Source: a virus. From it: a stretch of 54,918 nt of DNA. A model generated the notes under the pieces. It ran no database searches, was not told the origin of the DNA, and saw only the letters and a program-made list of their open reading frames with translations. Within the stretch, counting starts at the first letter, position 1. Each line of letters starts with the position of its first letter. Shown one piece after another: positions 2,101-45,119 of the stretch. A program made the position numbers and the translations under genes. The stretch is from IMG/VR virus record IMGVR_UViG_3300035234_000017, positions 1-54,918 of that record; one strand, written 5' to 3'.

Positions 2101-4224
2101 TCACCTCAAATCTTTATCAAAATCATCTACCATAATTGCTTCATGTTCTAAAATCCCATCTAATTCGCCTTTCAGATTAGACTCATATGCCCTTTCTAAA
2201 ATATTTAATGCATCCTTTGTATTAGATGATGTAAAAGTTTTATCTGTCAACCTAGACCTTGCATCAAATCCTAATGCAGATTTAATTGAATTAGGAACAT
2301 TGACCACCGACTTCACCATTTTACTATTCAACTTATCTGATGGACCCTTATATCTTCTACCAAATGGAAATATCAAACGTCTTAATATAAACCCAATGAA
2401 CTTTGAAGGATAATTGTCTAAAATGTCCTCAAACGATTTCTGTATATTATATAATCCAGACTCAGCACCCCATGTGACATATAATATATCATTCTTCTTA
2501 TCCATATCATCAGTATCTTCGTAACGTTTTAATACCGCAGATGTCATATACAACTCTGAAAATGCATCTGCAAATCTACCAGTTATTCTTTGTCGTTTCT
2601 TAAGATCAGCACCCAACACCGATATACTTATATCAGATAACAATGCAAAGTTCTTTGATTCCAATCCAATACGTTTATAATACTTACCAATTTCACATGA
2701 TGCATCTTTTGGTTTAGATATAAACATACCACCAGTAATATTATGATATAATGACCCAAATATATTACCAATAGTATATTTAAGATGACCCATTAACGCC
2801 TTATTAAATGCAATTGCATCACCACATTCAGCAGAAGTTACTTCATCTTTTATAAATGGATGACACCTTAAAGATCCTTGAGAAAACACAATCAACGATC
2901 TCGTTAATATATTCGCACCCTCAACAGTATTAGCAATAGGTTGTGTTATATAATAATTCAATAATAAATTATTAGGACCATCAGATATACCCTTTCCAGC
3001 CAAAATGTCCATACCATCAATAATACATTGTCGCATCCTTTCAGTACATTGATATTTCAACATGGCAGAAATAACAGATGGTTTTTCACCATTTACTATT
3101 GCCGTGGTGGTTAGATTACACGCAGCCTCTACAACATAACATTGTCCGATTATCCTAGACAATGGTTCTTCAATACCTTCCATCTTGGAAATTGGAATTT
3201 TAAATTGTTTTCTTATCCTAGAATATGCAGTAGTAACTTTTAATGTATGTTTAATACCAGCCATAGATAATGATGGTAATGATATTGCCCTACCAGCCGC
3301 AAGACACGCCATTAACATTCGCCAACCCTTTCCTACCCCATCAATTCCACCTATAACATGATTCAATGGTAAAAATACATCTTTACCATAATTCGGCCCA
3401 TTCATAAATGCTTGTCTAGCGGGATAATGTCTGCGTCCTATACGAACACCCTTAGTATCAGTTGGAACTAATACTAAACTTATACCCTCAACAGGAGGCG
3501 AATGCTCAGATTCTTTCAATAACTCATCAGGATCTACAATATGACACGCAACACCAAGTAATGTAGATACTGGTCCAAGTGTGATATATCGTTTTTCCCA
3601 ATTTAATCTAATACCTAATACCTTTTCACCCTCATATTCCCCATATTCAACAACACCATAATCTTCCATCGCCGCAGCATCTGAACCAGAATATGGTCCT
3701 GTTAATGCAAATGCCGGTATATCTTTACCTGATGATAATGTAGGTAACCATTTATCTTTTTGTTCTTGTGTGCCAAACTCATAAAGCAATTCACCAGGAC
3801 CCAAAGAATTTGGAACCATAGTAGTAATTGCTAATGAGATACTTCTAGACGCTAAAACTGATATAATACACGATTGTGCATATGCTGAGAATTCCAAACC
3901 ACCATATTCTTTCTTAATGTTGAGCGCAAAAAAACCATTATCTTTTAAATAATTCCACACATCAACTGGTAAATCTTTATGTATAACATTAACTTCCCAA
4001 TCAGACACCATTTCACAAACAGTATCAACTTCAGAATTAATGAAATCGTGTTCTTCTTGTGTTAATTTAGTTTGTTCTGTATTTAATAGTATATCCCAAT
4101 TTGGTCTACCACCAAATAACTCAGATTCCCACCATACTGTACCGGCATCTAAAGCCTCTCTTTCAGTATTTGATATCTTTGGTAATATCTTTTGGAATAA
4201 TTTCATACCATATTCATTCATCAT
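2101..4224 (-). CDS. fadE: FadE-type acyl-CoA dehydrogenase
   Basis: First step of beta-oxidation: FAD-dependent oxidation of acyl-CoA to trans-2-enoyl-CoA. The 707 aa contain the large FadE architecture. An N-terminal block (EREALDAGTVWWESELF) is followed by the central FAD/substrate region with ALTGPYSGSDAA (about 174-185) and a helical domain in which NTVEGANILTRSLIVF carries the catalytic base Glu435 in the FadE-specific VEGAN context. A DUF1974-like C-terminal extension follows. E. coli FadE is about 814 aa; the missing 80-100 residues are the N-terminal membrane segments, so this enzyme should be soluble. It is followed 4 bp later by purN. The start at MMNEYG follows an AGAGG site. Identity is firm; chain-length preference is not deducible. 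Confidence 0.95.
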   Translation of the reverse strand: MMNEYGMKLFQKILPKISNTEREALDAGTVWWESELFGGRPNWDILLNTEQTKLTQEEHDFINSEVDTVCEMVSDWEVNVIHKDLPVDVWNYLKDNGFFALNIKKEYGGLEFSAYAQSCIISVLASRSISLAITTMVPNSLGPGELLYEFGTQEQKDKWLPTLSSGKDIPAFALTGPYSGSDAAAMEDYGVVEYGEYEGEKVLGIRLNWEKRYITLGPVSTLLGVACHIVDPDELLKESEHSPPVEGISLVLVPTDTKGVRIGRRHYPARQAFMNGPNYGKDVFLPLNHVIGGIDGVGKGWRMLMACLAAGRAISLPSLSMAGIKHTLKVTTAYSRIRKQFKIPISKMEGIEEPLSRIIGQCYVVEAACNLTTTAIVNGEKPSVISAMLKYQCTERMRQCIIDGMDILAGKGISDGPNNLLLNYYITQPIANTVEGANILTRSLIVFSQGSLRCHPFIKDEVTSAECGDAIAFNKALMGHLKYTIGNIFGSLYHNITGGMFISKPKDASCEIGKYYKRIGLESKNFALLSDISISVLGADLKKRQRITGRFADAFSELYMTSAVLKRYEDTDDMDKKNDILYVTWGAESGLYNIQKSFEDILDNYPSKFIGFILRRLIFPFGRRYKGPSDKLNSKMVKSVVNVPNSIKSALGFDARSRLTDKTFTSSNTKDALNILERAYESNLKGELDGILEHEAIMVDDFDKDLR

Positions 4225-4235
4225 ATATCATACCT

Positions 4236-4406
4236 CTAAAATAAAATAAAATCTACCACCCATACTATTATATATAACATTAATGGCATACCAAATGTCA
4301 ATACAGACATCCAAACCGACTTAGTAACAGATTTACACAACCCATTACATTGATAATTAATCTTTTCCCGTATTCTCTCCATCCTTGACTGTACTATTTC
4401 GTTCAC
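4236..4406 (-). CDS. Small single-span membrane protein
   Basis: A 56-codon frame too short for usual ORF cut-offs. The GTG start at 4406 has GGAG about 9 nt upstream; an internal ATG at 4382 would give 48 aa but lacks a usable site. The C-terminal half (VWMSVLTFGMPLMLYIIVWV) is a membrane helix. It overlaps the 55-aa gene at 4357-4524 out of frame and ends just before fadE. No family was recognised. Confidence 0.4.
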   Translation of the reverse strand: MNEIVQSRMERIREKINYQCNGLCKSVTKSVWMSVLTFGMPLMLYIIVWVVDFILF

Positions 4407-4524
4407 TTTCTTTCTTCTCCGTTTTTTGTTTATTATTAAATATGATATCCCAATTATCTCTATATTTTTTGTTATTTATTTTAGATTTTATAGAATCTCC
4501 TGTTATATCATTCTTCGTTGTCAT
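4357..4524 (-). CDS. Conserved small phage protein with YRDNW motif
   Basis: A 55-aa lysine-rich protein with the stretch KYRDNWDIIFNNK at residues 20-32. The K-Y-x-(D/E)-N-W-(D/E)-x-I-F pattern recurs in small uncharacterised proteins of marine T4-like phages, which supports it as a real gene. It overlaps the end of the coiled-coil gene upstream by 17 bp. Function is unknown. Confidence 0.55.
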   Translation of the reverse strand: MTTKNDITGDSIKSKINNKKYRDNWDIIFNNKQKTEKKESERNSTVKDGENTGKD

Positions 4525-4759
4525 TTTCTATTTTTCTTTTTAATTTGTCGCGCTTCCGTTTAAGAGATTTAATCTCTCGTTTTAATTCTTTCACTTCATC
4601 CAAATACCTGTTTGCATCATTTATATCACCACATTTAGCCTCCATACGATTACCAATAGACTGCAACTCTTCTAATAACCCCATTACATGTGAAAAGTTT
4701 CTAGTTTTATAACACTCACGCATTTCATCTATCACAGTACAATAAAATCTATTTGTCAT
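4508..4759 (-). CDS. Small coiled-coil protein
   Basis: An 83-aa protein starting MTNRFYCTV. The start at 4759 is chosen because GAGGGG lies 6-7 nt upstream; longer in-frame starts (4795, 4828) have no such site and the longest would overlap the VWA gene. Residues 45-80 (VKELKREIKSLKRKRDKLKR and flanks) are a highly charged heptad-like coiled coil. No family was recognised. It lies directly downstream of the VWA/HExxH gene, so a partner or accessory role is possible but unproven. Confidence 0.6.
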   Translation of the reverse strand: MTNRFYCTVIDEMRECYKTRNFSHVMGLLEELQSIGNRMEAKCGDINDANRYLDEVKELKREIKSLKRKRDKLKRKIENDNEE

Positions 4760-4796
4760 AATTTTCCCCTCATCTAGCCATAGTACATCTTTCATA

Positions 4797-6989
4797 TTAA
4801 GCAACCATTCTCGCAAATTCTTGTGCAATTAACTTATTAGATTTCTTGTTCTTTTGGAACTTCTTAAAATCACGTTTGATTGTATTCAGTCTCTTACGAT
4901 CTGTTGTAAACAAAGGATCATCATCAGTAACTGTTACAAATTCATCATCTTCTGCCTGTAACCGTTTATCATGAACCACAATATAACGATCATAAAACTC
5001 ATTATCCGAATCAATTTTATCATGAACAATATATCCTAATTTTGGATTAACCATTTTACGATATGATGTTAAGAAAAAACCAATCACATTATATCGTTTT
5101 CGTAATGCATCAAACATCACCTTTTGATATAATTTAGTTCTAGCACCATATGAATAAAAATAATCTCTATCACCCACGTCTGCCTCAAGTCTACCATAAC
5201 CCTCAACATCAAAAACTACAACCTTTTGATCACCATAACCAATGTTCTTAGTTCTAATATCTTGTGCATGACCATCAGTTAGGAAAACCACATTCATCTT
5301 TTCAGTATTATGTTTCTTAACAAAATCATCCGCAAGAATTAATGAGTAAGCAGCAGTTTCAATTAATGGTGTTCCACCCATTGAAAACAGTTTCTCTTTC
5401 ATCCAAGCATTACCACCTGTCAATGTTTCAGAAGAAAACATAACTCGTTGAGTCATTTTGTTCTGTTTACTCGTTGTCCAACTAGAATCGGCAATTTTAA
5501 TCATTCCTAATGCATAATTGGCAAGGTCATATTTACCATAATCTTCACCTTTACCAAACATGTTTCTTTTGCCATTATCTTTCCATTTTTTACCATTAGT
5601 AGTAAATGTATATAATTCATATGGAATACCAACACGTTTCGCAAACATAATCAAAATAACAGACTGTTTTACGGTTTCATATAAACGACCCCACATAGAA
5701 CTAGAGAAATCGACATACATCAATAATCCATGATTCTTAGCATCAGGAAATGACATGATTGACTTGAAAATATGATCATCTAACTTATATTGCCACAATT
5801 TATCCACATCAATTGAACCACTTGTAGACTGTCTTGCCTTTCTTGATTCCATTGCAGATTTACGAAGTTCAAATTGTTGAACCATAGCATTTACTGCGGG
5901 TTTAACGTCACGAATAAACTCTTTATATCTTACATTAATGAACTCATCATGATAAATTTGCATAGCGGGTTGATTATTCTTCATTTCTAAGAATTCAGTA
6001 TAACTTCTCTCCACCTCTTCATCAGTATATAAAAACTCATTAACCAATTGTTCCTTTGTGAATTTAAGATATGAAGTACCACTACCCTCATTAATCATCT
6101 TATTTTCATTCTTTCTAAATGCATCATCAGTAACAGAATGATATGGATCTTCACCAGTAGTATCACCAGTATCAGAAAGTCCACCACCAGAAGAGGAAGA
6201 AACATTATCTTCTTCAACACTATTATCATCAGTAGCATTAGCATCAACATCAGTATCAGAAGAACCAGATTCTAATGAGTCATCACCATCTTCTGAAGCT
6301 TCAGTATCACCAACATCAGAATTTAAACTTTCAGACAATCCAGAAGAATCTTCAGATTCTTCAGATTCTTCTGAATCACCAGAACCATCACTTGATTGTT
6401 GCTGCTGTTGCTGCTGCTGCTGTTCCTGCTGTTCATCAAGAAACTCCATCAACTCACGTGAAACTCTAACTGTATCATCCCAAGTATCAATTTGAAATAC
6501 TTTAGACATCATAACAGATTCTTTAAATGAAAACTTAATATCAATAGTTTTTGATAACTTAGCCTTCAAATTCAATCTATCAAGAAATCCCAAAGTATCA
6601 ACATCAACATCTTTAATACCAAAGAAATTATCTGCAACTAAATGACGATATCCTTTTAGGAAATCATTAATTAATCCAGGATAAAATTCACGAACAAGAC
6701 GTTCAATACGAACATCTTCAACAATATTTAAAATAGAATGTGGTATATCTTCAATATCAGGTAATAACTTATTTATACTTTCATCATGACTGAAAATACT
6801 AGGTGTATATAATGCATGTCCAACCTCATGTCCAATGAACAGAGTGGCAGCATCTTTATATTCTTCTTTCAATAATGGCAATCTAAGAATACGATTAGTA
6901 GGGTCAAATGAAGCAGTTCTAAAATTACCCTCAATAACTTCTAAATCTTCTCTTGCCATTAATTTGGAAAGTAGTGAAGTGTTTAACAT
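4797..6989 (-). CDS. CobT-like VWA protein with HExxH motif
   Basis: A 730-aa protein of the type often annotated 'CobT-like' or 'peptidase' in marine T4-like phages. Residues 50-61 (LFIGHEVGHALY) form an HExxH zinc-site motif. Residues 187-198 are a glutamine run, followed to about residue 285 by an acidic Ser/Asp/Glu linker. A von Willebrand A domain starts near 421 with the MIDAS motif DFSSS (427-431) and a conserved FLTDGHAQD strand. Known VWA-CobT proteins partner with AAA+ ATPases in metal chelatases or MoxR-like remodelling; no such ATPase is next to it here. The gene is led by its own sigma70-like promoter overlapping a perfect palindrome. Molecular function is not established. Confidence 0.8.
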   Translation of the reverse strand: MLNTSLLSKLMAREDLEVIEGNFRTASFDPTNRILRLPLLKEEYKDAATLFIGHEVGHALYTPSIFSHDESINKLLPDIEDIPHSILNIVEDVRIERLVREFYPGLINDFLKGYRHLVADNFFGIKDVDVDTLGFLDRLNLKAKLSKTIDIKFSFKESVMMSKVFQIDTWDDTVRVSRELMEFLDEQQEQQQQQQQQQSSDGSGDSEESEESEDSSGLSESLNSDVGDTEASEDGDDSLESGSSDTDVDANATDDNSVEEDNVSSSSGGGLSDTGDTTGEDPYHSVTDDAFRKNENKMINEGSGTSYLKFTKEQLVNEFLYTDEEVERSYTEFLEMKNNQPAMQIYHDEFINVRYKEFIRDVKPAVNAMVQQFELRKSAMESRKARQSTSGSIDVDKLWQYKLDDHIFKSIMSFPDAKNHGLLMYVDFSSSMWGRLYETVKQSVILIMFAKRVGIPYELYTFTTNGKKWKDNGKRNMFGKGEDYGKYDLANYALGMIKIADSSWTTSKQNKMTQRVMFSSETLTGGNAWMKEKLFSMGGTPLIETAAYSLILADDFVKKHNTEKMNVVFLTDGHAQDIRTKNIGYGDQKVVVFDVEGYGRLEADVGDRDYFYSYGARTKLYQKVMFDALRKRYNVIGFFLTSYRKMVNPKLGYIVHDKIDSDNEFYDRYIVVHDKRLQAEDDEFVTVTDDDPLFTTDRKRLNTIKRDFKKFQKNKKSNKLIAQEFARMVA

Positions 6990-8114: not shown

Positions 8115-8990
8115 TTATAAAAATTCATCCAATGTTGACACGTTACTCTTATAATTCATCAATAACAATTCCTTTCTTTTCTTTTGATTCTCCACATATG
8201 CCGATGACTGATTATTCATGGTGTATGTGAGTTCCCATTCCTCTTGAGTCCATTCACTATACCATTCACGTAGAGTTGGATTGGAATTATATGTAATCAT
8301 ACACGTATTACCAGACTTTGATACCTTTTCATAGAATTCTCTATGATTAAATCCTTTATGCATCGAACCATCCTTTCCATATAAAGAATCCTTGATATCA
8401 TATGGCGGATCCAGAAACAAAAATACATTCGGGTCATCATCAATTAATTCAGAATAATCTAGGTTCGTGATTTTCCAATTCTTGATAATCTTTCCGAATA
8501 TTGTTAACGATTCTATTACCCTAAAGTTGAAACAATCTCTCATTGCCCATGTTGACATAGTACCAGATTCAGTTAAACCAGAGAAAGACATTCTATTCAT
8601 AGCATACCATCTCCATCCAACCTCAAATGGGTCTGTCTGATCTCCTATCTCCGCTTTCATTTCATTGAACAATTCACGACTCTTGTCCACATCATCTCCT
8701 ACTGATTCCTTCTTTTTCTTTAAAATATTGACTAATTGTTCGGTATCACTCTGCAAAGTAATCCAGAAATAATATAGATTCTGGTACTTATCATTTATAT
8801 GAATGGGAATGTTTGGGAATAAACGTGCAAATGCCAAGGAAGGAGAACCCCCACCACCGAAAGCATCTCGGTACTGGGTAATTTCCTGTATATTGGCTGG
8901 AAGTTTGGTATCATGAAACAGATACTTCATTGCCTTTGATTTACCACCTGGATACCTGAGTGGTGTTTTATAGTTATTTAACGATCTCAT
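8115..8990 (-). CDS. dam: Dam-family DNA adenine N6-methyltransferase
   Basis: A 291-aa D12-class (alpha) N6-adenine methyltransferase. LRYPGGKSKAMKYLF at about residues 11-25 is the AdoMet-binding FxGGK-type motif, and FLFLDPPYD (about 190-198) holds the catalytic DPPY. A target-recognition insert lies between them, as in Dam and T4 Dam. The start codon overlaps the preceding 59-aa gene's stop (TAATG), implying translational coupling. Likely role: methylate phage DNA against host restriction or mark it for replication. The target site (GATC or other) cannot be deduced here. Confidence 0.92.
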   Translation of the reverse strand: MRSLNNYKTPLRYPGGKSKAMKYLFHDTKLPANIQEITQYRDAFGGGGSPSLAFARLFPNIPIHINDKYQNLYYFWITLQSDTEQLVNILKKKKESVGDDVDKSRELFNEMKAEIGDQTDPFEVGWRWYAMNRMSFSGLTESGTMSTWAMRDCFNFRVIESLTIFGKIIKNWKITNLDYSELIDDDPNVFLFLDPPYDIKDSLYGKDGSMHKGFNHREFYEKVSKSGNTCMITYNSNPTLREWYSEWTQEEWELTYTMNNQSSAYVENQKKRKELLLMNYKSNVSTLDEFL

Positions 8991-9462: not shown

Positions 9463-9990
9463 TTAAGTTTTACACCTTACACCCTTTGATGGGTGTATAT
9501 CATCTGTCTCTTTTACATGAGTTAATGATTCAATCGTAACTTCTCCTGGATATGGCCATGTCTGTCTAGGTGGTAGTTTTCCCACCTGACTCCCATTATC
9601 ATACCACCGTTTCCCCTGTGCTATTCGATTAACAGCGGTTAACTCCGGGTCAAGAAAAGTAACTACTGTGGGGAAATACCCACTTTCAGTTAACTGCAAA
9701 TGATATTCCCAAGTAACTGTACCATATGCAACTATTATAACTTTATCACCAACATCACATAACTTTGCTGCGGCACCATTCACTGAAATAGTAAAAGATC
9801 TTTCATCGGGGATTGCATATGTTGTGAATCTATTACCATTATTAATATTATATATTTCTATTTGTTGATAAGGCAATATATTCGCCTTCTCTAATATATC
9901 ATTAGAAATTCCACAAGAACCCTCATAATCAATATCACATTCAGTAACTGTTGCATCGTGTATTTTTGATTTTAATATCTGTATTTCCAT
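9463..9990 (-). CDS. panD: Aspartate 1-decarboxylase with C-terminal extension
   Basis: Makes beta-alanine for pantothenate and coenzyme A. Residues 1-115 match the pyruvoyl enzyme: DYEGSCGIS gives the self-cleavage site Gly24-Ser25, with conserved IEIYNINNGNRFTTYAI and SVNGAAAKLCDVGDKVIIVAYG. Normal PanD is about 126 aa. This one is 175, with an extra 55-60 residues rich in Trp, Tyr and Pro (for example KLPPRQTWPYPGEV) that I cannot assign. The gene follows tnaA by 1 bp, last in the 15.7-9.5 kb unit. Providing CoA precursor fits the acyl-CoA enzymes elsewhere, which is inference. Confidence 0.93.
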   Translation of the reverse strand: MEIQILKSKIHDATVTECDIDYEGSCGISNDILEKANILPYQQIEIYNINNGNRFTTYAIPDERSFTISVNGAAAKLCDVGDKVIIVAYGTVTWEYHLQLTESGYFPTVVTFLDPELTAVNRIAQGKRWYDNGSQVGKLPPRQTWPYPGEVTIESLTHVKETDDIHPSKGVRCKT

Positions 9991-9991: not shown

Positions 9992-11350
9992 TCACTCCCC
10001 CATCGGTATAAGTTCTGCTGTAAAATGTCTCAAATATGGTGGTTCTTTAATTATTTTCAATCCAACCAATTTGTCTTTATTATTGTTTATATTATCTAAA
10101 ATTTCCACAACATAATCAATATGACTTTGGGTATATACCCTACGTGGTATTGTCAAACGTAATAACTCCATATCAGCACACTTATCTTCACCACCAAACA
10201 TAAGACTTCCAATCTCTACACCACGAATACCACCTTCCAAATATAAAGCACAAGCCAATACTTGTGCCGGAAATTGACTTACCGGTATATGAGATAACAT
10301 AGATTTAGCATCAATATATACTGCATGTCCTCCAATTGGTTTAACAACAGGAATACCTAAATCTGAAAGAGCATCACCTAAATATTTAACAGATTGTATC
10401 CTATATTGGAGATAATCTTCTTGAACAACTTCCTTTAACCCCTGAGATATAGCCGCCAAATCTCTACCAGATAACCCACCATAAGTAGGATATCCTTCAG
10501 TTAAAATACCAAGATTTCTAACAGGAGTAGATAATTCCTCATTATTAAATGCTAAAAAACCACCCATATTCACCATTCCATCTTTCTTAGCACTCATAGT
10601 ACAACCATCAGCATAAGAAAACATTTCTTGGGAAATCTCCTTTACCGTTTTATCAGAATATCCATCCTCTCGGAGTTTTATAAAATATGCATTTTCAGCA
10701 AATCTACACGCATCAAGAAAAAACGGTACATTATAATGTGTACAAAGTTTCTTAATCCCCTTAATATTTTCCATTGAAACTGGCTGTCCACCACCAGAGT
10801 TATTAGTAATAGTAACCATACATAATGGTATATCTCTAGAATTAGACTCTAATAAATCCTCTAATTTATTTAAATCCATATTACCTTTAAATGGATGAAG
10901 ATTGGACGGGTCTTTACCTTCCGATATCACTAAATCTAACGCTAATGTGTCATTATATTCTATATTAGCACGTGTCGTATCAAAATGTGTGTTATTTGGT
11001 ATTATTTTACCCCTTTCACATAAAACTGAAAATAATATTCTTTCTGCTGCCCTACCTTGATGTGTTGGAAATATATATTTAAATCCAGTTAAATCCTTTA
11101 TAGTCTTTTCCATATCATAATATGAAGAACACCCAGCATAAGATTCATCACCTTCAATCATTGCACCCCATTGATGGTCAGACATCGCACCAGTTCCAGA
11201 ATCAGTTAATAAATCTATTAAAACATTTTCCCCCTTTATTAAAAATAAATTATAATTAGCAGATTTTAAATGTAATTCCCTTTCCTCTCTAGATATCATT
11301 TTAATAGATTCAACCATTTTAATTTTAAATGGTTCAAATATAGTTTTCAT
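9992..11350 (-). CDS. tnaA: Tryptophanase-type beta-eliminating lyase
   Basis: PLP enzyme of the tryptophanase/tyrosine phenol-lyase family, 452 aa. SAKKDGMVNMGG carries the PLP lysine (Lys256); THQGR (about 96-100) and IDLLTDSGTGAMS are family hallmarks. Two substrate-determining positions favour tryptophanase: FDTT has Asp124 where tyrosine phenol-lyase has Thr, and GVEIGS has Ile380 where phenol-lyase has Arg. Expected reaction: L-tryptophan to indole, pyruvate and ammonia; cysteine and serine are secondary substrates of the family. It overlaps the lipoprotein gene upstream (ATGA) and abuts panD. A tryptophan-degrading enzyme in a T4-like phage is unusual. It could kill the tryptophan pool, make indole or supply pyruvate. 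Confidence 0.9.
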   Translation of the reverse strand: MKTIFEPFKIKMVESIKMISREERELHLKSANYNLFLIKGENVLIDLLTDSGTGAMSDHQWGAMIEGDESYAGCSSYYDMEKTIKDLTGFKYIFPTHQGRAAERILFSVLCERGKIIPNNTHFDTTRANIEYNDTLALDLVISEGKDPSNLHPFKGNMDLNKLEDLLESNSRDIPLCMVTITNNSGGGQPVSMENIKGIKKLCTHYNVPFFLDACRFAENAYFIKLREDGYSDKTVKEISQEMFSYADGCTMSAKKDGMVNMGGFLAFNNEELSTPVRNLGILTEGYPTYGGLSGRDLAAISQGLKEVVQEDYLQYRIQSVKYLGDALSDLGIPVVKPIGGHAVYIDAKSMLSHIPVSQFPAQVLACALYLEGGIRGVEIGSLMFGGEDKCADMELLRLTIPRRVYTQSHIDYVVEILDNINNNKDKLVGLKIIKEPPYLRHFTAELIPMGE

Positions 11351-12152: not shown

Positions 12153-13319
12153 TCAACGTAAATCCACGCCAATTGCTTCAGATATATTATTATAACCATC
12201 ACGTCTAAGTAATTCTACAAGTCCTATATTAATTTCAGCTGAAATTTGAGGTCCGTGAAATATCATACCAGTAATCAAATGTATTAATGTCGCACCACTT
12301 CTTATTTTCAAATAAGCATCTTCAGCAGTATCACACCCACCTATACCTATAACTATAAATTTATATTCATTATCTTTAACATGTTGTCCACATACCTTAA
12401 TTATATGATTAGTCATAGGACGTAATATATGTCCACTTAAACCACCACGGTCATCTGGCATAACTCGTTTTTCTATCTTACCACCATGTATGACATATGT
12501 AACCTTATCATCATCGGGTATCAATTCACGTTTTACTGTAAGATTACAAGTCAAAATACCATTAATACCATACGTATGCATAACATCTATCATCTGACAG
12601 ATTTCTTCATCTGTATGATCTGGACCAATCTTACAATATACAGGATATTCATTCAACCCCATCAATTCTCTTACACTCTTAACCTTTACTAACAATTCTG
12701 TTAAATTTTCCATATCAAAAAAGGGATTAGATACCCCCAAATTAGGACAACTAAGATTAATAGTAGTATAATCTCCATATGGAGACAATCGTTTAAATGA
12801 AGTTAATAAATCATCTATAACATCATCCTTATCAGATACACCGTTTGTTGCAGAAACTGATACACCACAAACACCATCGGCATGTTTCCAATCAGGGGCA
12901 ACACGATCTGCCACATGTAATGAACCAGAATTATTCAACCCATACCAAACATTAATAGATTGTGACTTAACCGCTCTCCATAATCTAACCGGTGGATTAC
13001 CATCATGTGGTTCTTTTGAAAATGAACCAAGTTCAATACCAGAAAATCCCAAATCACGTATGACAGGTGGCAATACCCCATACTTATCAAATCCAGCAGA
13101 AATTAACAATGGATTGCTATAATGAACACCGTTTACACCTTGAGATAACATAGTATTATCATACCTATATAAATATCTCAATAACTTTTTACTATATGGG
13201 ATACGTTGAACCCATCCTATAATATTTTTAACTACATCATGTGCCGTTTCAGGACACAATTTAAATAATATAGGTCGTAATAACCACTTATAAACAATCC
13301 TCTGCATTCTATACTTCAT
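12153..13319 (-). CDS. pyrD: Dihydroorotate dehydrogenase (quinone), class 2
   Basis: Oxidises dihydroorotate to orotate in pyrimidine synthesis, passing electrons to quinone. The 388 aa include the N-terminal membrane-associating helical domain (RIVYKWLLRPILFKLCPETAH) typical of class 2. The FMN barrel follows with NPLLISAGFDKYG, the substrate loop TTINLSCPNLG containing the catalytic serine of class 2 enzymes, YCKIGPD, and the phosphate loop IGIGGCDTAEDAYLKIRSGA. Spacing to neighbours is 6-9 bp. Together with Prs it supports UMP synthesis during infection. The N-terminal domain predicts inner-membrane attachment and use of the host quinone pool. Confidence 0.94.
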   Translation of the reverse strand: MKYRMQRIVYKWLLRPILFKLCPETAHDVVKNIIGWVQRIPYSKKLLRYLYRYDNTMLSQGVNGVHYSNPLLISAGFDKYGVLPPVIRDLGFSGIELGSFSKEPHDGNPPVRLWRAVKSQSINVWYGLNNSGSLHVADRVAPDWKHADGVCGVSVSATNGVSDKDDVIDDLLTSFKRLSPYGDYTTINLSCPNLGVSNPFFDMENLTELLVKVKSVRELMGLNEYPVYCKIGPDHTDEEICQMIDVMHTYGINGILTCNLTVKRELIPDDDKVTYVIHGGKIEKRVMPDDRGGLSGHILRPMTNHIIKVCGQHVKDNEYKFIVIGIGGCDTAEDAYLKIRSGATLIHLITGMIFHGPQISAEINIGLVELLRRDGYNNISEAIGVDLR

Positions 13320-13939: not shown

Positions 13940-14425
13940 TTAACATCTGTTATTATATCTATAAATACCATCATCAATTACTCTCTTAGCCTCTGAATTA
14001 TCACCCCACCCATTAACTTTTGCCCACTTGTTTTCATCTAAATCCTTATAATGTTCAAAGAAATGATATATACTCTCCAACTGTTCAATCGGAACATCTA
14101 TAATATCATACCAATCAGAATATACCTCATCAACAGGTACTGCCAATATTTTAGGATCGTCACCCGACTCATCTACCATATGGAGAACCCCAATGACATT
14201 ACATAATACTTTGCAATTAGGTATTAATGGATATGGTGTTATTACCAAAACATCAACAGCATCATTGTCACCACCTATTGTATTTGGCAGACAACCATAA
14301 TTGCAAGGATAGTGCATTGATGTGTGTAAAAATCTATCAAATCTAAGCACACCCGTTTTATGATCAACTTCATATTTAATATGTGAAGTTCCCATAGACA
14401 TTTCAATCAATACGTCAATATTCAT
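13940..14425 (-). CDS. ppa: Inorganic pyrophosphatase, family I
   Basis: Hydrolyses pyrophosphate, pulling PRPP-dependent and polymerase reactions forward. The 161 aa (E. coli 176) retain the core: IEMSMGTSHIKYEVD, YPCNYGCLPNT, the metal-binding GDNDAVDVLV (the D..D..D signature) and DESGDDPKILAVP with further metal Asp residues. No good ribosome-binding site precedes the ATG at 14425; instead it lies at the edge of a tandem 16-bp repeat rich in A on the coding strand. It is in the same unit as pyrD, and near prs. Confidence 0.92.
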   Translation of the reverse strand: MNIDVLIEMSMGTSHIKYEVDHKTGVLRFDRFLHTSMHYPCNYGCLPNTIGGDNDAVDVLVITPYPLIPNCKVLCNVIGVLHMVDESGDDPKILAVPVDEVYSDWYDIIDVPIEQLESIYHFFEHYKDLDENKWAKVNGWGDNSEAKRVIDDGIYRYNNRC

Positions 14426-15756: not shown

Positions 15757-15861
15757 CTAATTTAAACTGACATTTATAATATACCCAATACCTATTAATA
15801 TTGCATTTGCACAAATAAAAATAGCAAATAATAACCCTAAAAATTTAAAATTTTCTTTCAT
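15757..15861 (-). CDS. 34-aa membrane peptide
   Basis: MKENFKFLGLLFAIFIC... to INVSLN: one hydrophobic helix. Its ATG overlaps the prs TGA (ATGA), the coupling seen at many junctions here. Too short for family assignment. Confidence 0.5.
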   Translation of the reverse strand: MKENFKFLGLLFAIFICANAILIGIGYIINVSLN

Positions 15862-25519: not shown

Positions 25520-25531
25520 TAAATCACCGCA

Positions 25532-33009: not shown

Positions 33010-33766
33010 AATCTCTTACCACCTTCTTCATAGTTAATGCTTCCCACGAAATAGGATACAACGCCCCTAATATTCTATTCCACTCATCAGAAAGTTCACG
33101 TATCTCCAATTGAGCCGTAGAACTTTTTCTTAAATTATATGCCCTTGCCCAAGCATATAAAGACCCTGTTACAAAATATTCAGTCATCATAGACTGTGGT
33201 AGAACCATTCTAGCTTGTTCTGGACACACACCCGACTCAATCATCTCCGTATATAATCTAGTTGATTGAGTAATATGACTCATATATGCGTCTTCTAATA
33301 AAGGAGAAGTTAGTCCATTCATGAATGGTTCTTTGAAATGAGTGACAAAATCTGTATCAGAAGAACCCTGTTTAACCTTCTCTGGACGTGTTCTCCACCC
33401 ATTAGTTTCTGGTACATGAAAATCTGGAGTATCTGATACATATCGTCTTGACACTTCATTATAACTAAACCCCACAACATGCTTAAATCTCTGTCTAGCA
33501 ACAAAAATAGGCACTTTCTCACGTAACGTAACCATTTCATGTGTAAATGGTGTGAAGTGGTTATGTTTGGCCAAATACCTAATCAACTTTTTATCACCAT
33601 CTTTAACATTAGGAATAAATGCGTGTAATGTACACTCTCCATCTTCATCCACGTGTTCTACAATTTCATCAAAGCCAACCCCCTCAGAAAACTTAGCAAA
33701 TGAAACACGAGCAGAATTAACTACTGTAATATCATCACCCATATGATTAACATATTCTACCTTCAT
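33002..33766 (-). CDS. thyX: Flavin-dependent thymidylate synthase
   Basis: Makes dTMP from dUMP using FAD, NADPH and methylene-THF. The 254 aa contain the ThyX signature as RQRFKHVVGFSYNEVSRRY (usual RHRxxSxNExSxRY), with the first His replaced by Gln and VGF before the motif serine position read as SYNE. The C-terminal QLEIRELSDEWNRILGALYP is also typical. It lies with dut and grx-nrdB in the dNTP block. ThyX releases THF rather than DHF, which fits the degenerate DHFR in this genome. Confidence 0.93.
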   Translation of the reverse strand: MKVEYVNHMGDDITVVNSARVSFAKFSEGVGFDEIVEHVDEDGECTLHAFIPNVKDGDKKLIRYLAKHNHFTPFTHEMVTLREKVPIFVARQRFKHVVGFSYNEVSRRYVSDTPDFHVPETNGWRTRPEKVKQGSSDTDFVTHFKEPFMNGLTSPLLEDAYMSHITQSTRLYTEMIESGVCPEQARMVLPQSMMTEYFVTGSLYAWARAYNLRKSSTAQLEIRELSDEWNRILGALYPISWEALTMKKVVRDYE

Positions 33767-34813: not shown

Positions 34814-36007
34814 CTAATATACATCCGACCAATCTCCCTTTAAACCACCAACTTCATATTCTGTAACCCGATTCTCAAAAAAGTTAGTATGGTCGGGTGC
34901 ATTTAATACCCAATCTAACCACGGTAACGGATTCTCTTTAACTCTATAATTAGGTTTGAATCCTAATTGTAATAATCTTCTATCAGCAATATATCTGATA
35001 TATTGTTTAACATCATCTTTATCTAAATCTTCTATAATAGAGTCTCCATATGCAAGATCTATAAATTTATCTTCTAACTTAACAACTTTACGTAACATAC
35101 TATATATGTCTTTCTTAAAATCATCAGTAACAATTCTAGGATGTTCTTCACAAAACTTCTTAAAAATTTGAGTCATACCATCAACATGCATACTTTCATC
35201 ACGAATAGACCATTCTACAACTTTACACATTCCTTTCATTTTACCAAATCTTTGAAAATTTAATAACATTACAAATGAAGCAAATAATGAGATACCTTCA
35301 GAAAATACAGACTTAGAAATAGCAAATGCCAAATTAGAATAGTTAGAGTTATCATTATCTCGCATAAACTCAACTTTATTAGACATTTCTTTATATTCTA
35401 AAAATGCATGAAACTCTGATTCAGGCAATCCTAATGTGTCATTCAATAAAGCATATGCTCTTTGATGTATGCCTTCTCTAGCCGCAAACGAACCGAGCAT
35501 GTTACGTATCTCGTTATTCTTTAATTTAGGAATAAAAAAATCATAATAATTTTGTCCAACCGCAACATCAGATTGAGTAAATAACCTTAATACTTGAGTA
35601 ATATAATTCCTTTCAGACTCCGATAATTTACCATTCTTCCAATCAGCAACATCATCAGATAAATCAATCTCATCTTCAATCCAATGTGCCTGTTCATGTC
35701 TTTTTGTCAATTCAACCGCCCACGGATACCTAAATGGTTTATATGTTTCTGATGGTGTAGTCATATTGACAGGAGTATCAAATAAAAATTTCTCTTTATT
35801 TTTCATCAGGGTATCATAGTTACCAAAATACTCACCATCCACAACAATTTGAGGTACAGTTCTTTGATTCAACTTTGCAAAATCGTTCCAAACATCCTCA
35901 CCTGACTGTATATCTCTTTCCGTATACGTAACATCGTGTTTATCAAACCATTGTTTTACATTCAAACAAAATGAACAAGACCCCTGTGAATATACTACTA
36001 TTTCCAT
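34814..36007 (-). CDS. nrdB: Glutaredoxin-NrdB fusion (class Ia RNR beta subunit)
   Basis: A 397-aa fusion. Residues 1-77 are a glutaredoxin with CSFC (Cys11, Cys14), TVPQIVVDGEYFG and a terminal helix. From about 90 the RNR small subunit follows: EDEIDLSDDVADW (metal acid), AREGIHQRAYALL (Glu and His ligands plus the radical Tyr), SEGISLFASF and IRDESMHVDGM (remaining Glu/His ligands). It generates the tyrosyl radical for NrdA, and the attached glutaredoxin can re-reduce NrdA's C-terminal cysteines. Only the C-terminal tail (EYEVGGLKGDWSDVY) contacts NrdA. Grx-NrdB fusions are known but uncommon. Confidence 0.94.
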   Translation of the reverse strand: MEIVVYSQGSCSFCLNVKQWFDKHDVTYTERDIQSGEDVWNDFAKLNQRTVPQIVVDGEYFGNYDTLMKNKEKFLFDTPVNMTTPSETYKPFRYPWAVELTKRHEQAHWIEDEIDLSDDVADWKNGKLSESERNYITQVLRLFTQSDVAVGQNYYDFFIPKLKNNEIRNMLGSFAAREGIHQRAYALLNDTLGLPESEFHAFLEYKEMSNKVEFMRDNDNSNYSNLAFAISKSVFSEGISLFASFVMLLNFQRFGKMKGMCKVVEWSIRDESMHVDGMTQIFKKFCEEHPRIVTDDFKKDIYSMLRKVVKLEDKFIDLAYGDSIIEDLDKDDVKQYIRYIADRRLLQLGFKPNYRVKENPLPWLDWVLNAPDHTNFFENRVTEYEVGGLKGDWSDVY

Positions 36008-37517: not shown

Positions 37518-39789
37518 GTCTTTTTTCAATAAAAATTGAAATTCTTTCCCATATTAAATCAGAATTATTATACAGTATACCATGACAATCAGAACCAATA
37601 ATATGCATTTCCTTATCGATGGAAGATATATTATTATATATATAATCAGCCCCACTAACGGAAACTAATGAATCATCTTTAGAAAATATAATCAACATGG
37701 GAACTGTTACATTAGCTAATGTACTCTTAATACTTTTAACCAATCTCCCTACCTCATATATACTAAACGTTGGTATTATCCAATAATTAATATGTTCATT
37801 CTCAGGAATATTCTTAAAAAATGCTTTAACTCCATTACCTGATAATAATATACTAACAACCTTATTAATACCGTTGATTATGGGTACAAACTTAATTCTA
37901 GTATCATTATAAAAAATAGGAGCAGATATAACAACTATGGATTTAACCCTAGAGTCATGTATAAATTCGTTACGTAATGCAATTGCACCACCAGTAGAAA
38001 ACCCGATAATCACAATATTTTTAGACAACATACAAGCCATGTCAAAATAACTATAAACCGAATTTATCCAATCATTATAATCATATTGCATCAAATCATA
38101 GGGTGACGTACCATGACCAACTATTCTAGCACCAACAACAGTATAACCAATATCACACAAATAATCACCAAACCCCCTAACTTCTGCCGGAGATGATAAT
38201 AATCCATGGATTAACAATATTACTACACCGTTAGACTTTTTAGGGAATAAAATAAAAGGATTATTATTAGAAGTATTAATATCAGAAAATTTAGAATTAT
38301 ATTTATCATTCCTATATAATTTCTTATCATATGTTAACGATAGTTTCTGATCATCTAATAAATGTAATACTATATCTTTATTAGTGACCTTATGCATACC
38401 ACTAATAACACCTTTAACCACTTCACCAACCAAAGAAATCGGCTGTATCTCGTTATAATATACAACTAATAAATTCTCAACTCTAACTGTCAAAGGATCA
38501 ACATTAGAATTAAACTTACTAGATAAATATATAGTATTAGTCCCTATAACCAATACACCTTGTTTCTCAAGAGACTCAATATATTTTAATATATCTACAT
38601 TATTACCACTTAATATATCACTATAAAGTCGAGGCGTTAATAACCCACGATGTAATCTAATTTCAGGTTTATATTGTAATGTCTTTAACACCAAATATAA
38701 TTCTTTATATAATTGATCTTTAGAAACAGATACTATATTTTGTTTGAATCTATACATCAATAAACAAGATGTCAGATGGCTTAAATTAATAGTAACATAA
38801 GAATAAATACTTTTAGTGTAAAAGTCACGTGTAACATTAGAACACTTTATGAGATGTTTATGCAACATCTCACCTTTCCAAGACTTATCAACACTACCAA
38901 TAGAAAACACATCATCTAAGGATTTTATAGAATCAGTAAATGTTTCAGTTAAAGATGACTTCCATGAATGCCAAATACCGGAGGTAGATATCACTTTACT
39001 CATAACAACATCCATATCAGTATCTTTAGTAATTAAATTCCCCTCAACTATCAATTCTTCTGTTTGTCGTAATGTAAGTCCATTAGAAATATATTCAACA
39101 GCCTTCAATAAAACATTATCAGTCGCACGTAAAGGATAAAACGTTATATTAGATGCAACTATATTAGTAGGTATTTCTACTGCTGCCAATAACTCATCCA
39201 AACTATGAAAATCTAATTCCTTTTGCCACATTAATAATCTATCCATATCCATATCTCTATGAGCATTACGAACTATGAACTTAAACACCTCCAACCCATG
39301 TGACAAAACAGCTGCACCAGTATGTTGTTTCCGTACTTTCATGGTTGTTTGACATAACATATTATAATGTCCTTCATCATCAACAACCCGATGATCCTTT
39401 ACCATCCCACCTTCAGGGAAAATAACAACTTTATGTCCGTGTAATATTTGTTTTGCTAAAATAGGAAATAATCTAGGGTGATTATGTGGGATAACCCCCA
39501 ACTTACTTAAATACGATGACAATATACCATCATTTTTAAAAAATTCACCAGAACCAACAGAATAACAATAACTACCATTTTCTTCATGTATCAAATATTG
39601 AGGAATAAATGTTTCTATACGAGAAAAATGATTAAATACAAATATACTACCATCATTAATATTAATATCAGAATGAATATTAATATTAATTCTTAATAGT
39701 CTTTTCAAAATTCTAAATGCACGTATAGATAATCTATACATACGTTTGTCTATATCAACCCAATCATGATTATACTTAGAAAGTTTCAT
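37507..39789 (-). CDS. Acyltransferase (LPLAT)-alpha/beta hydrolase fusion
   Basis: A 760-aa, two-enzyme fusion. The N-terminal PlsC/LPLAT-like domain has IFVFNHFSRIETF (HxxxxE, His54/Glu59, where most have HxxxxD) and VIFPEGGMVKD (about 122-131), with a helical middle region. The C-terminal part (from about 520) is a carboxylesterase/monoacylglycerol-lipase-like hydrolase: ILLIHGLLSSP oxyanion strand, IIGFSTGGAI with Ser598, SKDDSLV with Asp705, SDCHGIL with His736. Together these could remodel glycerolipids or acyl carriers. It overlaps the methyltransferase stop (ATGA), sharing its promoter. Substrates are unknown; the lipid theme fits the fad genes. Confidence 0.85.
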   Translation of the reverse strand: MKLSKYNHDWVDIDKRMYRLSIRAFRILKRLLRININIHSDININDGSIFVFNHFSRIETFIPQYLIHEENGSYCYSVGSGEFFKNDGILSSYLSKLGVIPHNHPRLFPILAKQILHGHKVVIFPEGGMVKDHRVVDDEGHYNMLCQTTMKVRKQHTGAAVLSHGLEVFKFIVRNAHRDMDMDRLLMWQKELDFHSLDELLAAVEIPTNIVASNITFYPLRATDNVLLKAVEYISNGLTLRQTEELIVEGNLITKDTDMDVVMSKVISTSGIWHSWKSSLTETFTDSIKSLDDVFSIGSVDKSWKGEMLHKHLIKCSNVTRDFYTKSIYSYVTINLSHLTSCLLMYRFKQNIVSVSKDQLYKELYLVLKTLQYKPEIRLHRGLLTPRLYSDILSGNNVDILKYIESLEKQGVLVIGTNTIYLSSKFNSNVDPLTVRVENLLVVYYNEIQPISLVGEVVKGVISGMHKVTNKDIVLHLLDDQKLSLTYDKKLYRNDKYNSKFSDINTSNNNPFILFPKKSNGVVILLIHGLLSSPAEVRGFGDYLCDIGYTVVGARIVGHGTSPYDLMQYDYNDWINSVYSYFDMACMLSKNIVIIGFSTGGAIALRNEFIHDSRVKSIVVISAPIFYNDTRIKFVPIINGINKVVSILLSGNGVKAFFKNIPENEHINYWIIPTFSIYEVGRLVKSIKSTLANVTVPMLIIFSKDDSLVSVSGADYIYNNISSIDKEMHIIGSDCHGILYNNSDLIWERISIFIEKRLDL

Positions 39790-40772
39790 AACATTAAAAA
39801 ACTATCAAGTGTTGGGATATTCTTACGTTCAATCTCAATATTAACATTCTCTTCAGTTATCTTAAAAAACTGTTCTGATGCTTCAAATCCAATATACTTT
39901 CTACCAAGTTGTGATGCTCTAACTAAGGTAGTTCCTGTGCCAGAAAAGGGGTCAAGAACAACACCACCTACTGGACAACCAGCAATTATAGGTTTATCAA
40001 TTAATTCTGAATTATATGAAGCAAGGTGTGAAGAACGATTACCCTTTATTGTAATGTTCCAAAAATCGGCAACATCACCCGGGTTCTTTCCTTTAGTATT
40101 GTAATCAGAAGATCGTGGTCGTTTATTACGTGTCTTACCAACGCCACCATTAGTTCCTATATGCTTATCAACAGTAGATGATGGACTATTAAAATTATTA
40201 CGTTCAGATTCCACTTTTAAATACATATGCTCATCACGAATAGAATCAAGGTCAAAATAATAACCTTTAGGTTTCTTCGTCATTAAAAAGATATATTCGT
40301 GTTTCTTTGAGAATCTATCACGAACCGATTCAGGCATACCATTTCTCTTTGCCCAGATTATATCATTACGAATAGTCCATCCACGGTCATAACAACCAAT
40401 AGCAAATCTATGAGGAATCAATAATAAACTTTTAGGTTTCAAATCAGATGGTTGGTTAATCTTCATACCACCCAAATAATCACCAGTTCTACTTCCAGTA
40501 TGACCAGTATTAAGTCCACCAGATTTAGTAGAATATGTATCACCAAGATTGATCCATACAGTACCAGTATCTTTTAAAACTCTATGAATTTCATCCATCA
40601 TTTCCCATAAATGTTCAAGATATTCTTGGAATGTGGGTTCTAATCCCCACTGACCATCAAACCCATAATCCCTTAATTGCCAATATGGCGGTGACGTAAT
40701 GACACAATCAATAGAATTATCATCTAACTTTTTGAAACCTTCCATGATGTCACAATTATATATTTTATCCAA
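39786..40772 (-). CDS. DNA methyltransferase, beta class (N4-C or N6-A)
   Basis: A 328-aa methyltransferase read from TTG at 40772. The GTGGGGGG run lies 5 nt upstream and the translation then opens DKIYNCDIMEGFKKLDDNSI, the usual start of this family; an upstream frame would include promoter DNA. VITSPPYWQLRDYG (about 25-38) is the catalytic SPPY motif and LDPFSGTGTTLVRASQLGRKYIG the AdoMet motif near the C-terminus, an order that defines the beta class. SPPYW favours N4-cytosine but does not prove it. No cognate restriction enzyme is adjacent. Confidence 0.9.
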   Translation of the reverse strand: MDKIYNCDIMEGFKKLDDNSIDCVITSPPYWQLRDYGFDGQWGLEPTFQEYLEHLWEMMDEIHRVLKDTGTVWINLGDTYSTKSGGLNTGHTGSRTGDYLGGMKINQPSDLKPKSLLLIPHRFAIGCYDRGWTIRNDIIWAKRNGMPESVRDRFSKKHEYIFLMTKKPKGYYFDLDSIRDEHMYLKVESERNNFNSPSSTVDKHIGTNGGVGKTRNKRPRSSDYNTKGKNPGDVADFWNITIKGNRSSHLASYNSELIDKPIIAGCPVGGVVLDPFSGTGTTLVRASQLGRKYIGFEASEQFFKITEENVNIEIERKNIPTLDSFLML

Positions 40773-40795
40773 ATTAAACCCCCCACTATATTCAT

Positions 40796-40824
40796 AGTAT
40801 ACCACACCACTAGCTAATTGTCAA
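40796..40824 (-). promoter_or_regulatory. Sigma70-like promoter for methyltransferase/acyltransferase
   Basis: Minus strand: TTGACA (40819-40824), 17-bp spacer, TATACT (40796-40801). It shares TTGACAATTAG with the 8.1 and 31.3 kb promoters. The -10 box is 24 bp before the TTG start, so the 5' UTR is short. Confidence 0.82.
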
Positions 40825-43804: not shown

Positions 43805-43841
43805 ATATTACAACTCTAAATGTAAAATTATATTTATAATA

Positions 43842-45119
43842 TTAAAACTGTTCCTCTTCAGTAGAACCGTCCATAGCAGTAACAGATGATTTACCACCTT
43901 GTATAACATTTGTAACAGAATCAAAATAACCAGCACCAACTTCCTCTTGATGCCTTGCAAATGTATATCCATCTTTAACCGAAGCAAACTCAGGTTCTTG
44001 GACACCCTCCACATAAGCAGTCATACCACGTTCAACATAATCTTTTGACAACTCAAACATAGAATGCCACATATCATGAATACCAGCTAACGTAATAAAT
44101 TGCCATTTGAACCCCATCTCCCCTAATTTTTGTTGATAGTGACTTATTTCTTCATCACTCAAATTCTTCTTCCAATTGAATGACGGTGAGCAGTTGTACG
44201 CCAGAAGTTTGCCCGGATACTGTTGGTGTATCGCAGTCGCAAATTTTTGTGCCTCTTCTAAATTCGGCACCGCAGTTTCACACCAAAGCATATCAGCATA
44301 AGCCGCATAAGATAATCCCCTTGATATCGCTTGGTCTATTCCGCAGTTGACTCTGAAAAACCCCTCTTCAGTTCTCTCCCCTGTGACGAATTCCTTGTCA
44401 CGGACATCAATATCAGATGTCAGCAAAGTTGCTGCGTTAGCATCTGTCCTTGCGATAATAACGATAGGCACACCCATAACATCAGATGCCAATCTCGCAG
44501 ATACTAATTTCTGGATTGCCTCTTGTGTTGGCACTAACACCTTACCACCCATATGTCCACATTTCTTAGCAGATGATAATTGGTCTTCTAAATGAATACC
44601 AGACACACCGCACTCTATCATAGATTTAGTCAACTCATAAGAGTTCAACACCCCACCAAACCCAGCCTCAGCATCTGCGATAATTGGAGCAAAGTAATCA
44701 ATATCGTTTCTTCCCTTGTTCCATTGAATTTCATCTGCTCTACGGAATGTATTATTAATACGTCTTACCATCATTGGTACTGAATTATATGCATATAATG
44801 ATTGATCTGGATACATAGTTTCTGACGAATTACCATCAGCGGCAACCTGCCAACCTGATAAATATATAACCTTAATACCAGCCTTAACTTGTTGCATAGC
44901 TTGACCAGCAGTTATAGCACCCATAGAATTAACATATCCATCTTCGTTAATCAATTTCCAAAGTTTTTTAGAACCCACGGTAGACACTGTATATTCTTCA
45001 TCAAACGAACCACTTAACCTAATAACATCTTCTGCCGAATAATCACGTTTGACATTCAACCAACGATCATTCTCTCGCCAATCTTTCTCTAAAGTTCGTA
45101 CTCTACCCAATTGTTCCAT
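43842..45119 (-). CDS. aceA: Isocitrate lyase
   Basis: Glyoxylate-bypass enzyme splitting isocitrate to glyoxylate and succinate. The 425 aa (E. coli 434) are complete: [21 protein letters not shown], the catalytic-loop [16 protein letters not shown] with Cys187 and His189, [14 protein letters not shown], and [11 protein letters not shown]. It allows growth on acetyl-CoA from fatty acids. The partner malate synthase is not in the window. The stretch 44.1-44.5 kb is visibly richer in G+C than its neighbours, consistent with a more recent acquisition. It lies between nrdA and the KxDG gene, 22 bp from nrdA. Confidence 0.97.

Follow-up and report, generated by a model that had tools for sequence, protein, structure and literature searches.

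The window analysed here is the whole of virus record IMGVR_UViG_3300035234_000017 (54,918 bases), which is probably a fragment of a larger genome. After removal of overlapping open reading frames (ORFs), 70 of the 73 ORFs of at least 60 aa lie on the minus strand, and among them are genes encoding a FadE-type acyl-CoA dehydrogenase, a FadJ-like enoyl-CoA hydratase/3-hydroxyacyl-CoA dehydrogenase, a FadI-like 3-ketoacyl-CoA thiolase and an isocitrate lyase (ICL, AceA), with T4-like genes for primase, helicase, UvsX, RNase H, NrdA and NrdB-glutaredoxin as neighbours (Table 1). An earlier note, made from the sequence alone, had read these genes as a beta-oxidation plus glyoxylate-bypass programme of a T4-like phage. 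As it had described, the four enzymes are encoded by complete ORFs with every named residue in its position, all on the strand that carries gp41, gp61, uvsX and nrdAB.

Table 1. Annotated features of the window, with the four fatty-acid and isocitrate lyase enzymes first, followed by T4-like replication and nucleotide genes and by other metabolic genes.
Feature	Position	Strand	Basis
FadE-type acyl-CoA dehydrogenase with ACDH_C domain, 707 aa	2101-4224	(-)	family match, complete ORF
FadJ-type enoyl-CoA hydratase / 3-hydroxyacyl-CoA dehydrogenase, 665 aa	20795-22792	(-)	family match, complete ORF
FadI-like 3-ketoacyl-CoA thiolase, 437 aa	22796-24109	(-)	family match, complete ORF
Isocitrate lyase (AceA), 425 aa	43842-45119	(-)	family match, complete ORF
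T4-like primase (gp61 type)	47079-48098	(-)	family match
T4-like replicative helicase (gp41 type)	52044-53417	(-)	family match
UvsX recombinase	53779-54834	(-)	family match
NrdA	45141-46904	(-)	family match
NrdB with N-terminal glutaredoxin domain	34814-36007	(-)	family match
ThyX thymidylate synthase	33002-33766	(-)	family match
PurN-like formyltransferase	1449-2096	(-)	118 bits, under the cut-off of 150
Quinone-type dihydroorotate dehydrogenase (DHODH)	12153-13319	(-)	family match
Ribose-phosphate pyrophosphokinase (PRPP synthetase, Prs)	15858-16811	(-)	family match
Inorganic pyrophosphatase	13940-14425	(-)	family match
PanD aspartate 1-decarboxylase	9463-9990	(-)	108.2 bits, cut-off 106
Class 3 lipase (Lipase_3)	18582-19364	(-)	family match
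LPLAT-type acyltransferase-like + alpha/beta hydrolase protein, 760 aa	37507-39789	(-)	family match
Alanine dehydrogenase (alanine/pyruvate)	383-1492	(-)	family match
Tryptophanase / tyrosine phenol-lyase-type beta-eliminating lyase	9992-11350	(-)	family match
Thiamine diphosphate (ThDP)-dependent decarboxylase	16808-18538	(-)	nearest indolepyruvate/phenylpyruvate decarboxylase models, under their cut-offs

The FadE protein comprises N-terminal, middle and C-terminal acyl-CoA dehydrogenase domains followed by ACDH_C, and scored 910 bits against NF007000 (cut-off 600) and 902 bits against NF009586 (cut-off 608), while it stayed below the 'exception' model FadE_coli (855 vs 1300 bits), the name of which suggests a narrow scope. 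Its Glu435, within the motif VEGANILTRS, was invariant in all nine aligned copies (the window and eight viral loci). The FadJ-type protein has ECH and 3HCDH domains in one chain with E115, E137 and H436 present, and aligned almost end to end with alpha subunits of fatty acid oxidation complexes in the PDB. The thiolase gene lies 3 nt from it, and the encoded thiolase domains contain C95, H391 and C421, with the motifs kept in 4/4 copies; the protein reached model PRK08170 (607 bits, cut-off 593). For ICL, 737 bits were obtained against PRK15063 (cut-off 562), and the motif KKCGH with C187 was kept in 5/5 copies. From family knowledge, we take these residues to be catalytic, including the glutamate of VEGANILTRS in FadE-type enzymes.

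The T4-like character of the lineage is seen in the gp41, gp61 and UvsX types of the window and in the gp43 type, head, portal, sheath and terminase of its relatives. The search of viral contigs for FadE, FadJ, FadI and AceA that the earlier note had proposed recovered the set on independent contigs of the same lineage, and scans of the viral_contigs collection gave 13 loci for FadE (14 with the alignment query), 12 for FadJ and 10 for thiolase. Two relatives, G003 (115,003 bp) and G004 (96,760 bp), are colinear with the window except for a few gene gains and losses. G004 encodes a T4-like major head protein, scaffold, portal, tail sheath and terminase as well as FadE, FadJ, thiolase, ICL and a malyl-CoA lyase, and G003 encodes baseplate-type proteins, a gp32-type single-stranded DNA-binding protein, a gp43-type polymerase and a gp46-type SbcC subunit. 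In a third relative, G010 (60,947 bp), identities to the window were 58% for FadE, 78% for FadJ, 78% for thiolase, 90% for ICL and 56% for UvsX, and the gene order is rearranged, yet FadE, FadJ, thiolase, ICL and PanD are kept. In a survey with 18 marker proteins (a match being at least 50% identity over at least 30% of the length), 43 contigs had at least one marker; thiolase was present in all 12 contigs with FadJ, and the 13th thiolase contig ends inside the thiolase gene.

These observations bear on whether bacterial metabolic genes were misjoined to phage DNA by assembly or host contamination, a concern raised in the earlier note. The proteins do come from bacterial enzyme families, and the matching records filed as phage look bacterial (see below). 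Against a misjoin, the same junctions were found on contigs named as different datasets, the set is kept in two rearranged lineages, and the viral FadE copies group away from cellular ones. The cargo genes are also interleaved with phage genes at similar GC content: values per 2-kb segment of the window range from 0.27 to 0.37, no GC block is formed by the cargo genes, and the highest GC occurs around 43-46 kb, where ICL sits. Since the set recurs on independent contigs, one of which has T4-like structural genes, and also in a relative that is diverged and rearranged, a host/phage chimera was rejected and is regarded as extremely improbable.

The FadE tree was built from 27 proteins, nine from phages and 18 selected among 80 listed genome loci. 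One group with 100/100 support comprised the nine phage copies together with locus L141, and the 17 other cellular copies stood apart; the 79 genome loci other than L141, among the matches listed, were 44-50% identical. L141 (DQME01000048.1) is a 5.7-kb contig in a gammaproteobacterial metagenome-assembled genome (MAG). Because its FadE falls inside the phage group, it is probably of phage origin and was binned with a bacterium, and as evidence for the host it is weak at best. Malyl-CoA lyase was found at E <= 1e-70 in 54 of 369 gammaproteobacterial genomes, the MAG of L141 included, with the best other match at 67% identity, and of nine FadJ matches in that MAG, the one with the lowest E-value had 30% identity.

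The cargo genes are under purifying selection, about as strong as that on phage core genes. Pairwise ratios of nonsynonymous to synonymous substitution rates (dN/dS) were 0.056-0.184 for FadE, 0.117-0.235 for FadJ, 0.087-0.157 for thiolase, 0.022-0.097 for ICL, 0.072-0.227 for malyl-CoA lyase and 0.055-0.100 for phosphoenolpyruvate (PEP) synthase, compared with 0.043-0.136 for NrdA, 0.059-0.242 for UvsX and 0.069-0.099 for ThyX; the ratios for between-lineage pairs are rough, since these pairs are partly saturated in dS (up to 3.8). Decay of the cargo, for which the earlier note had expected dN/dS near 1, was rejected on the range of 0.02-0.24 across the six cargo genes, like that of NrdA, UvsX and ThyX.

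The programme is thus phage-borne, conserved and selected, and the part of the earlier note that was not supported is the classical glyoxylate bypass, in which malate synthase accompanies ICL. The related records were read for fadD, aceB and etfAB, and none was found; as these records are fragments, the absences of malate synthase, FadD and electron-transfer flavoprotein (ETF) are no proof. Malate synthase, for which the earlier note had allowed a place outside the window or a supply by the host, was above cut-off in none of 22 related records, and two weak matches were rejected as both fall on a malyl-CoA lyase gene. A protein of the HpcH_HpaI family (CitE/malyl-CoA lyase) was instead found in 6 of 30 related records. 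A separate scan of the viral_contigs collection with two short patterns, which may overlook diverged copies, gave the identical six contigs and none further. FadE and ICL are both present in four of the six (G003, G004, G010 and the contig of L006), with FadE only in G002 and ICL only in G024.

The pairing was also surveyed across viral ICL loci, of which 77 were retained (from the best 80 of 83 stretches): 14 belong to this lineage (90-99% identity) and 63 are diverged (55-62%). In the records of 50 of the 63 diverged loci, the 13 shortest contigs being left out, malate synthase was found once and HpcH_HpaI not at all. In viral contigs, ICL alone is common and ICL with malate synthase is rare in the sample, and the only lineage seen to pair ICL with malyl-CoA lyase is the FadE-bearing one; the absences in this survey are weak, since many ICL-bearing records are fragments.

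The phage protein looks like a malyl-CoA lyase by full-length homology, its Mg-ligand Glu/Asp residues, its Arg and its lid Asp. Its best PDB match was the malyl-CoA lyase 5ugr (E 7.8e-100, residues 1-311 of 320 aa), and its D294 aligns with the lid Asp of a second malyl-CoA lyase, 4l9y (position judged by eye). Both share named active-site residues and full-length homology with the phage protein; they are cellular enzymes, which we take to come from Methylobacterium and Rhodobacter sphaeroides with roles in the serine cycle and the ethylmalonyl-CoA pathway, whereas the phage protein sits in a lineage with ICL and FadE. Six residues are given as conserved in malyl-CoA lyases in the available text of PMC3832036; by an alignment judged by eye they correspond to E44, D45, R78, E143, D172 and D294 of the phage protein, and they were invariant in 6/6 aligned copies. 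The same portion of that source places a Glu at the lid position in the malyl-CoA thioesterase group of R. sphaeroides. The phage copies have D294 there, so the protein looks like a lyase that would need a thioesterase partner to yield malate.

Further carbon steps were found in the relatives. In G003 there are genes for PEP synthase (1101 bits, cut-off 598), FtsH (799 bits, cut-off 600), malate dehydrogenase (418 bits, cut-off 271) and a hot-dog acyl-CoA thioesterase (best PDB match E 7.7e-23), and those for the thioesterase, FtsH and PEP synthase are adjacent to one another in both G003 and G010. Viral loci with PEP synthase numbered 10 at 85-100% identity and 19 more at 48-54%, and viral PEP synthase as such is therefore not rare; malate dehydrogenase was found at five viral loci (64-100% identity) in the collection scan.

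The finding of malyl-CoA lyase rather than malate synthase in the related records changes the predicted route. The reading we favour, with moderate confidence and on the basis of gene content, is that fatty acids are turned into C4 acids with malyl-CoA lyase replacing malate synthase, feeding gluconeogenesis and nucleotide synthesis. FadE and the FadJ-like and FadI-like enzymes would convert host (or self-released) fatty acyl-CoA to acetyl-CoA, ICL would split isocitrate into succinate and glyoxylate, and malyl-CoA lyase, working in the direction of condensation, would join glyoxylate and acetyl-CoA to malyl-CoA. Malate may then be released by a thioesterase, either the phage hot-dog enzyme or one of the host. 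The malate dehydrogenase and PEP synthase of the relatives would carry C4 and C3 carbon towards aspartate, PEP, ribose-5-phosphate and nucleotides, the phage contributing Prs, DHODH, PurN-like, ThyX and Nrd proteins at the nucleotide end, and the host would supply FadD, ETF, citrate synthase and aconitase. The lipid-to-nucleotide conversion proposed in the earlier note is therefore plausible as a candidate function, and it gains from the PEP synthase and malate dehydrogenase of the relatives. If the route is true, some phages would draw on host lipids for their replication by means of a linked and selected gene set that breaks down acyl-CoA and assembles C4 compounds, with one pathway step filled by malyl-CoA lyase rather than the textbook malate synthase, and label from fatty acids would be expected in phage DNA.

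Several observations weigh against this route, many of them concerning the lyase. Malyl-CoA lyase was not found in the window itself, and 24 of the 30 related records, which are fragments, had no match. The protein stays under the NCBIfam equivalog cut-offs (RipC 169/375, citE 160/443 and HaloMCL 128/500 bits). ICL, malyl-CoA lyase and FadE are 3.7-57 kb apart in the 115-kb, 96.8-kb, 60.9-kb and 37-kb relatives (malyl-CoA lyase at 39 kb, FadE at 54 kb and ICL at 95 kb in G003; at 2, 14 and 59 kb in the same order in G004; ICL at 9 kb, malyl-CoA lyase at 14 kb and FadE at 31 kb in G010; ICL at 4-6 kb and malyl-CoA lyase at 9-10 kb in G024), and a tandem order is therefore seen only in L006 and L141, which are closely related, being sisters in the FadE tree. 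L006 has the order ICL (241-1518), malyl-CoA lyase (1547-2503), FadE (2584-4671) and an ORF resembling the PurN-like one of the window (4668-5273), and L141 has a hydrolase-like ORF, ICL, a small ORF, malyl-CoA lyase and FadE. Among the other steps, the thioesterase is far under the YciA cut-off (30 vs 162 bits) and its G010 copy had no YciA match. Malate dehydrogenase was found in just 1 of 30 related records and in five contigs of the collection scan, and it was not found in the window. The PEP synthase and thioesterase of the 115-kb relative lie outside the part that matches the window, so for the phage of the window we infer these four steps from its relatives. The AMP-binding family, to which FadD belongs, was matched in none of 29 related records and by none of 30 scanned ORFs of the window, and ETF was matched in 0/30 related records. 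The names of the beta-oxidation enzymes had also to be adjusted: FadE and ICL passed cut-offs as named, whereas the FadJ-type protein missed the equivalog cut-offs of FadJ (502 vs 869 bits) and FadB (468 vs 870 bits) and is therefore called FadJ-like, and the thiolase, having passed PRK08170, fell under both FadI equivalogs (TIGR02446 251/712 and PRK08963 309/560 bits) and is therefore called FadI-like. Two of four FadJ copies lack the exact GAGVMGG string of the NAD site.

Part of this evidence would fit another use of the lyase, in which it joins propionyl-CoA from odd-chain acids to glyoxylate, giving beta-methylmalyl-CoA, or cleaves malyl-CoA as in the serine cycle, and does not replace malate synthase. 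Malyl-CoA lyases are described as promiscuous and reversible and without thioesterase action in the part of PMC3832036 available, the lid residue of the phage protein is Asp and not the Glu of the R. sphaeroides thioesterase group, ICL and the lyase are not adjacent in most contigs, and the major head protein of the lineage is nearest (60%) to those of Methylophilales phages. The order ICL, malyl-CoA lyase and FadE in L006 and L141 points instead to glyoxylate and acetyl-CoA as substrates, and the hot-dog acyl-CoA thioesterase that neighbours FtsH and PEP synthase in both G003 and G010 likewise argues against this use, which is considered unlikely. It comes next after the chief rival of the C4 route, which is energy supply.

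Under the latter, beta-oxidation and the bypass would serve mainly for NADH/FADH2, ATP and filling of the tricarboxylic acid (TCA) cycle, and the nucleotide genes would be ordinary T4-like cargo. Reducing equivalents do come from beta-oxidation, as established biochemistry has it, and in the available text of Hurwitz et al. 2013 the fadB/fadL and TCA genes of viromes are taken as energy generation and TCA balancing (PMC4053976). The same lineage, however, has anaplerotic or gluconeogenic malyl-CoA lyase, PEP synthase and malate dehydrogenase, and each PEP costs PEP synthase two high-energy bonds. Energy supply is thus a possible but clearly less probable explanation than carbon flow into C4 acids.

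The class 3 lipase and PanD named in the earlier note were confirmed by family matches, and of the LPLAT-esterase fusion, the monoacylglycerol-lipase-like alpha/beta hydrolase C-terminus is clear and the acyltransferase N-terminus borderline (23.7 vs 23 bits). With Lipase_3 and the lipase-acyltransferase-like protein in the window, and an alpha/beta-hydrolase-like ORF (judged by eye) next to ICL in L141, the lipases and acyl-CoA enzymes could be thought to alter or clear membrane lipids, in remodelling or lysis, with acetyl-CoA a mere by-product. This would leave ICL, malyl-CoA lyase, malate dehydrogenase and PEP synthase unexplained and is considered very unlikely.

The best-known auxiliary genes of T4-like phages concern photosynthesis, the pentose phosphate pathway and nucleotides. 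In a phage collection of 50,697 records, FadE matched 19 records, FadJ 20 and thiolase 41, all at less than 60% identity, ICL matched 10 records, and malyl-CoA lyase matched six at 27-33% identity. One of these, MT835486 (an 'UNVERIFIED' faecal record, L278), has a butyrate-type row of thiolase, enoyl-CoA hydratase, 3-hydroxyacyl-CoA dehydrogenase, acyl-CoA dehydrogenase and two ETF genes, and none of its 10 scanned ORFs was phage-like. Microcystis phage MaAM05 (MW495066, L279) has an acyl-CoA dehydrogenase (24% identity) among genes annotated as flagellar-motor, OmpA, MurJ and BioD. Both look bacterial by gene content and were rejected as phages with the same enzymes; the remaining matching records were judged by name and listed annotation only, and others also look bacterial. 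As the earlier note had supposed, the full enzyme set was carried by no verified phage seen in this collection, and no verified phage record was found with malyl-CoA lyase; neither the full set nor malyl-CoA lyase in a phage was described in the literature searched, which was covered mostly at the level of titles and abstracts and included few subscription papers and bioRxiv preprints.

Known before were single functions (aceAB, fadB) in viromes and an aceBA operon in one T4-like environmental genome, and the linked full set is new to the searched literature. That genome, TARA_ERS478052_N000008 (179 kb), has T4-like structural genes and an auxiliary ICL as here but pairs ICL with malate synthase in an aceBA operon, and the account of it, in the part available, makes no mention of a beta-oxidation gene, of malyl-CoA lyase or of PEP synthase (PMC5332604). 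Nishimura et al. 2017 there describe the operon as the first known to them from a complete viral genome and suggest a host benefit in the lysogenic phase (PMC5332604, available portion). An 81-kb viral record (G453, the record of L113) with ICL and malate synthase together (6143-6871) resembles this published genome. In the viromes of Hurwitz et al. 2013, as far as the source was available, aceAB, fadB and fadL were assigned to ocean viruses, functions also found here, with gene families pooled across viromes, whereas here a linked set stands on one genome; the terms 'fadE' and 'acyl-CoA' are absent from the main text of that paper (PMC4053976). Acyl-CoA dehydrogenase, lipase, malate synthase and isocitrate lyase are reported, in the available part of PMC9270025, for giant viruses, which are viruses of eukaryotes and not phages. 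In cells infected by HP1 or HS2, central carbon proteins were followed with FadE, FadI, FadJ and AceA/B in the list (PMC11170926), which we read as host proteins. Isocitrate lyase is not mentioned in the main texts of PMC7785012, PMC11360552, PMC8940887 and PMC4164917.

Among named phages, the top match by DNA polymerase (47%) was the T4-like phage C48C1 (OQ984149, Kyanoviridae), which has an ICL homologue with 52% identity (L114, OQ984149.1 44175-45416) annotated as 'hypothetical protein'; it had no FadE, FadJ or malyl-CoA lyase match, and no thiolase match among the 20 of 41 records listed. Nearest by major head protein were the T4-like phages Melnitz (60%), of Methylophilales, and Pelagibacter phage HTVC008M (58%), neither with a match in the FadE, FadJ, ICL and malyl-CoA lyase searches.

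Among the other genes of the lineage, the tryptophanase-type lyase gene is present in G004 and absent at the same place in G003, and with the indolepyruvate-decarboxylase-like ThDP enzyme it may form an aromatic amino acid or pyruvate side branch. An FTR1-type iron permease (14611-15252) has 100% protein identity in the 115-kb relative. DnaJ and DnaK are encoded in the window (24500-27466), and the 115-kb relative adds FtsH, an IbpA-like small heat-shock protein and a peptidylprolyl isomerase (L116:6224-8035, L117:3980-4432 and L116:1569-2096), together a proteostasis set of one lineage; matches to DnaK were also obtained in very large records of uncultured phages. DNA modification is suggested by methylase genes of the window and its relatives together with a gene for a Mom-family protein in the 115-kb relative (8115-8990, 39786-40805; L119:6661-8142; L117:11050-11949). 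A tryptophan-halogenase family protein (L133:1967-3523, minus strand) is encoded near the tail-fibre genes of a related 37-kb contig.

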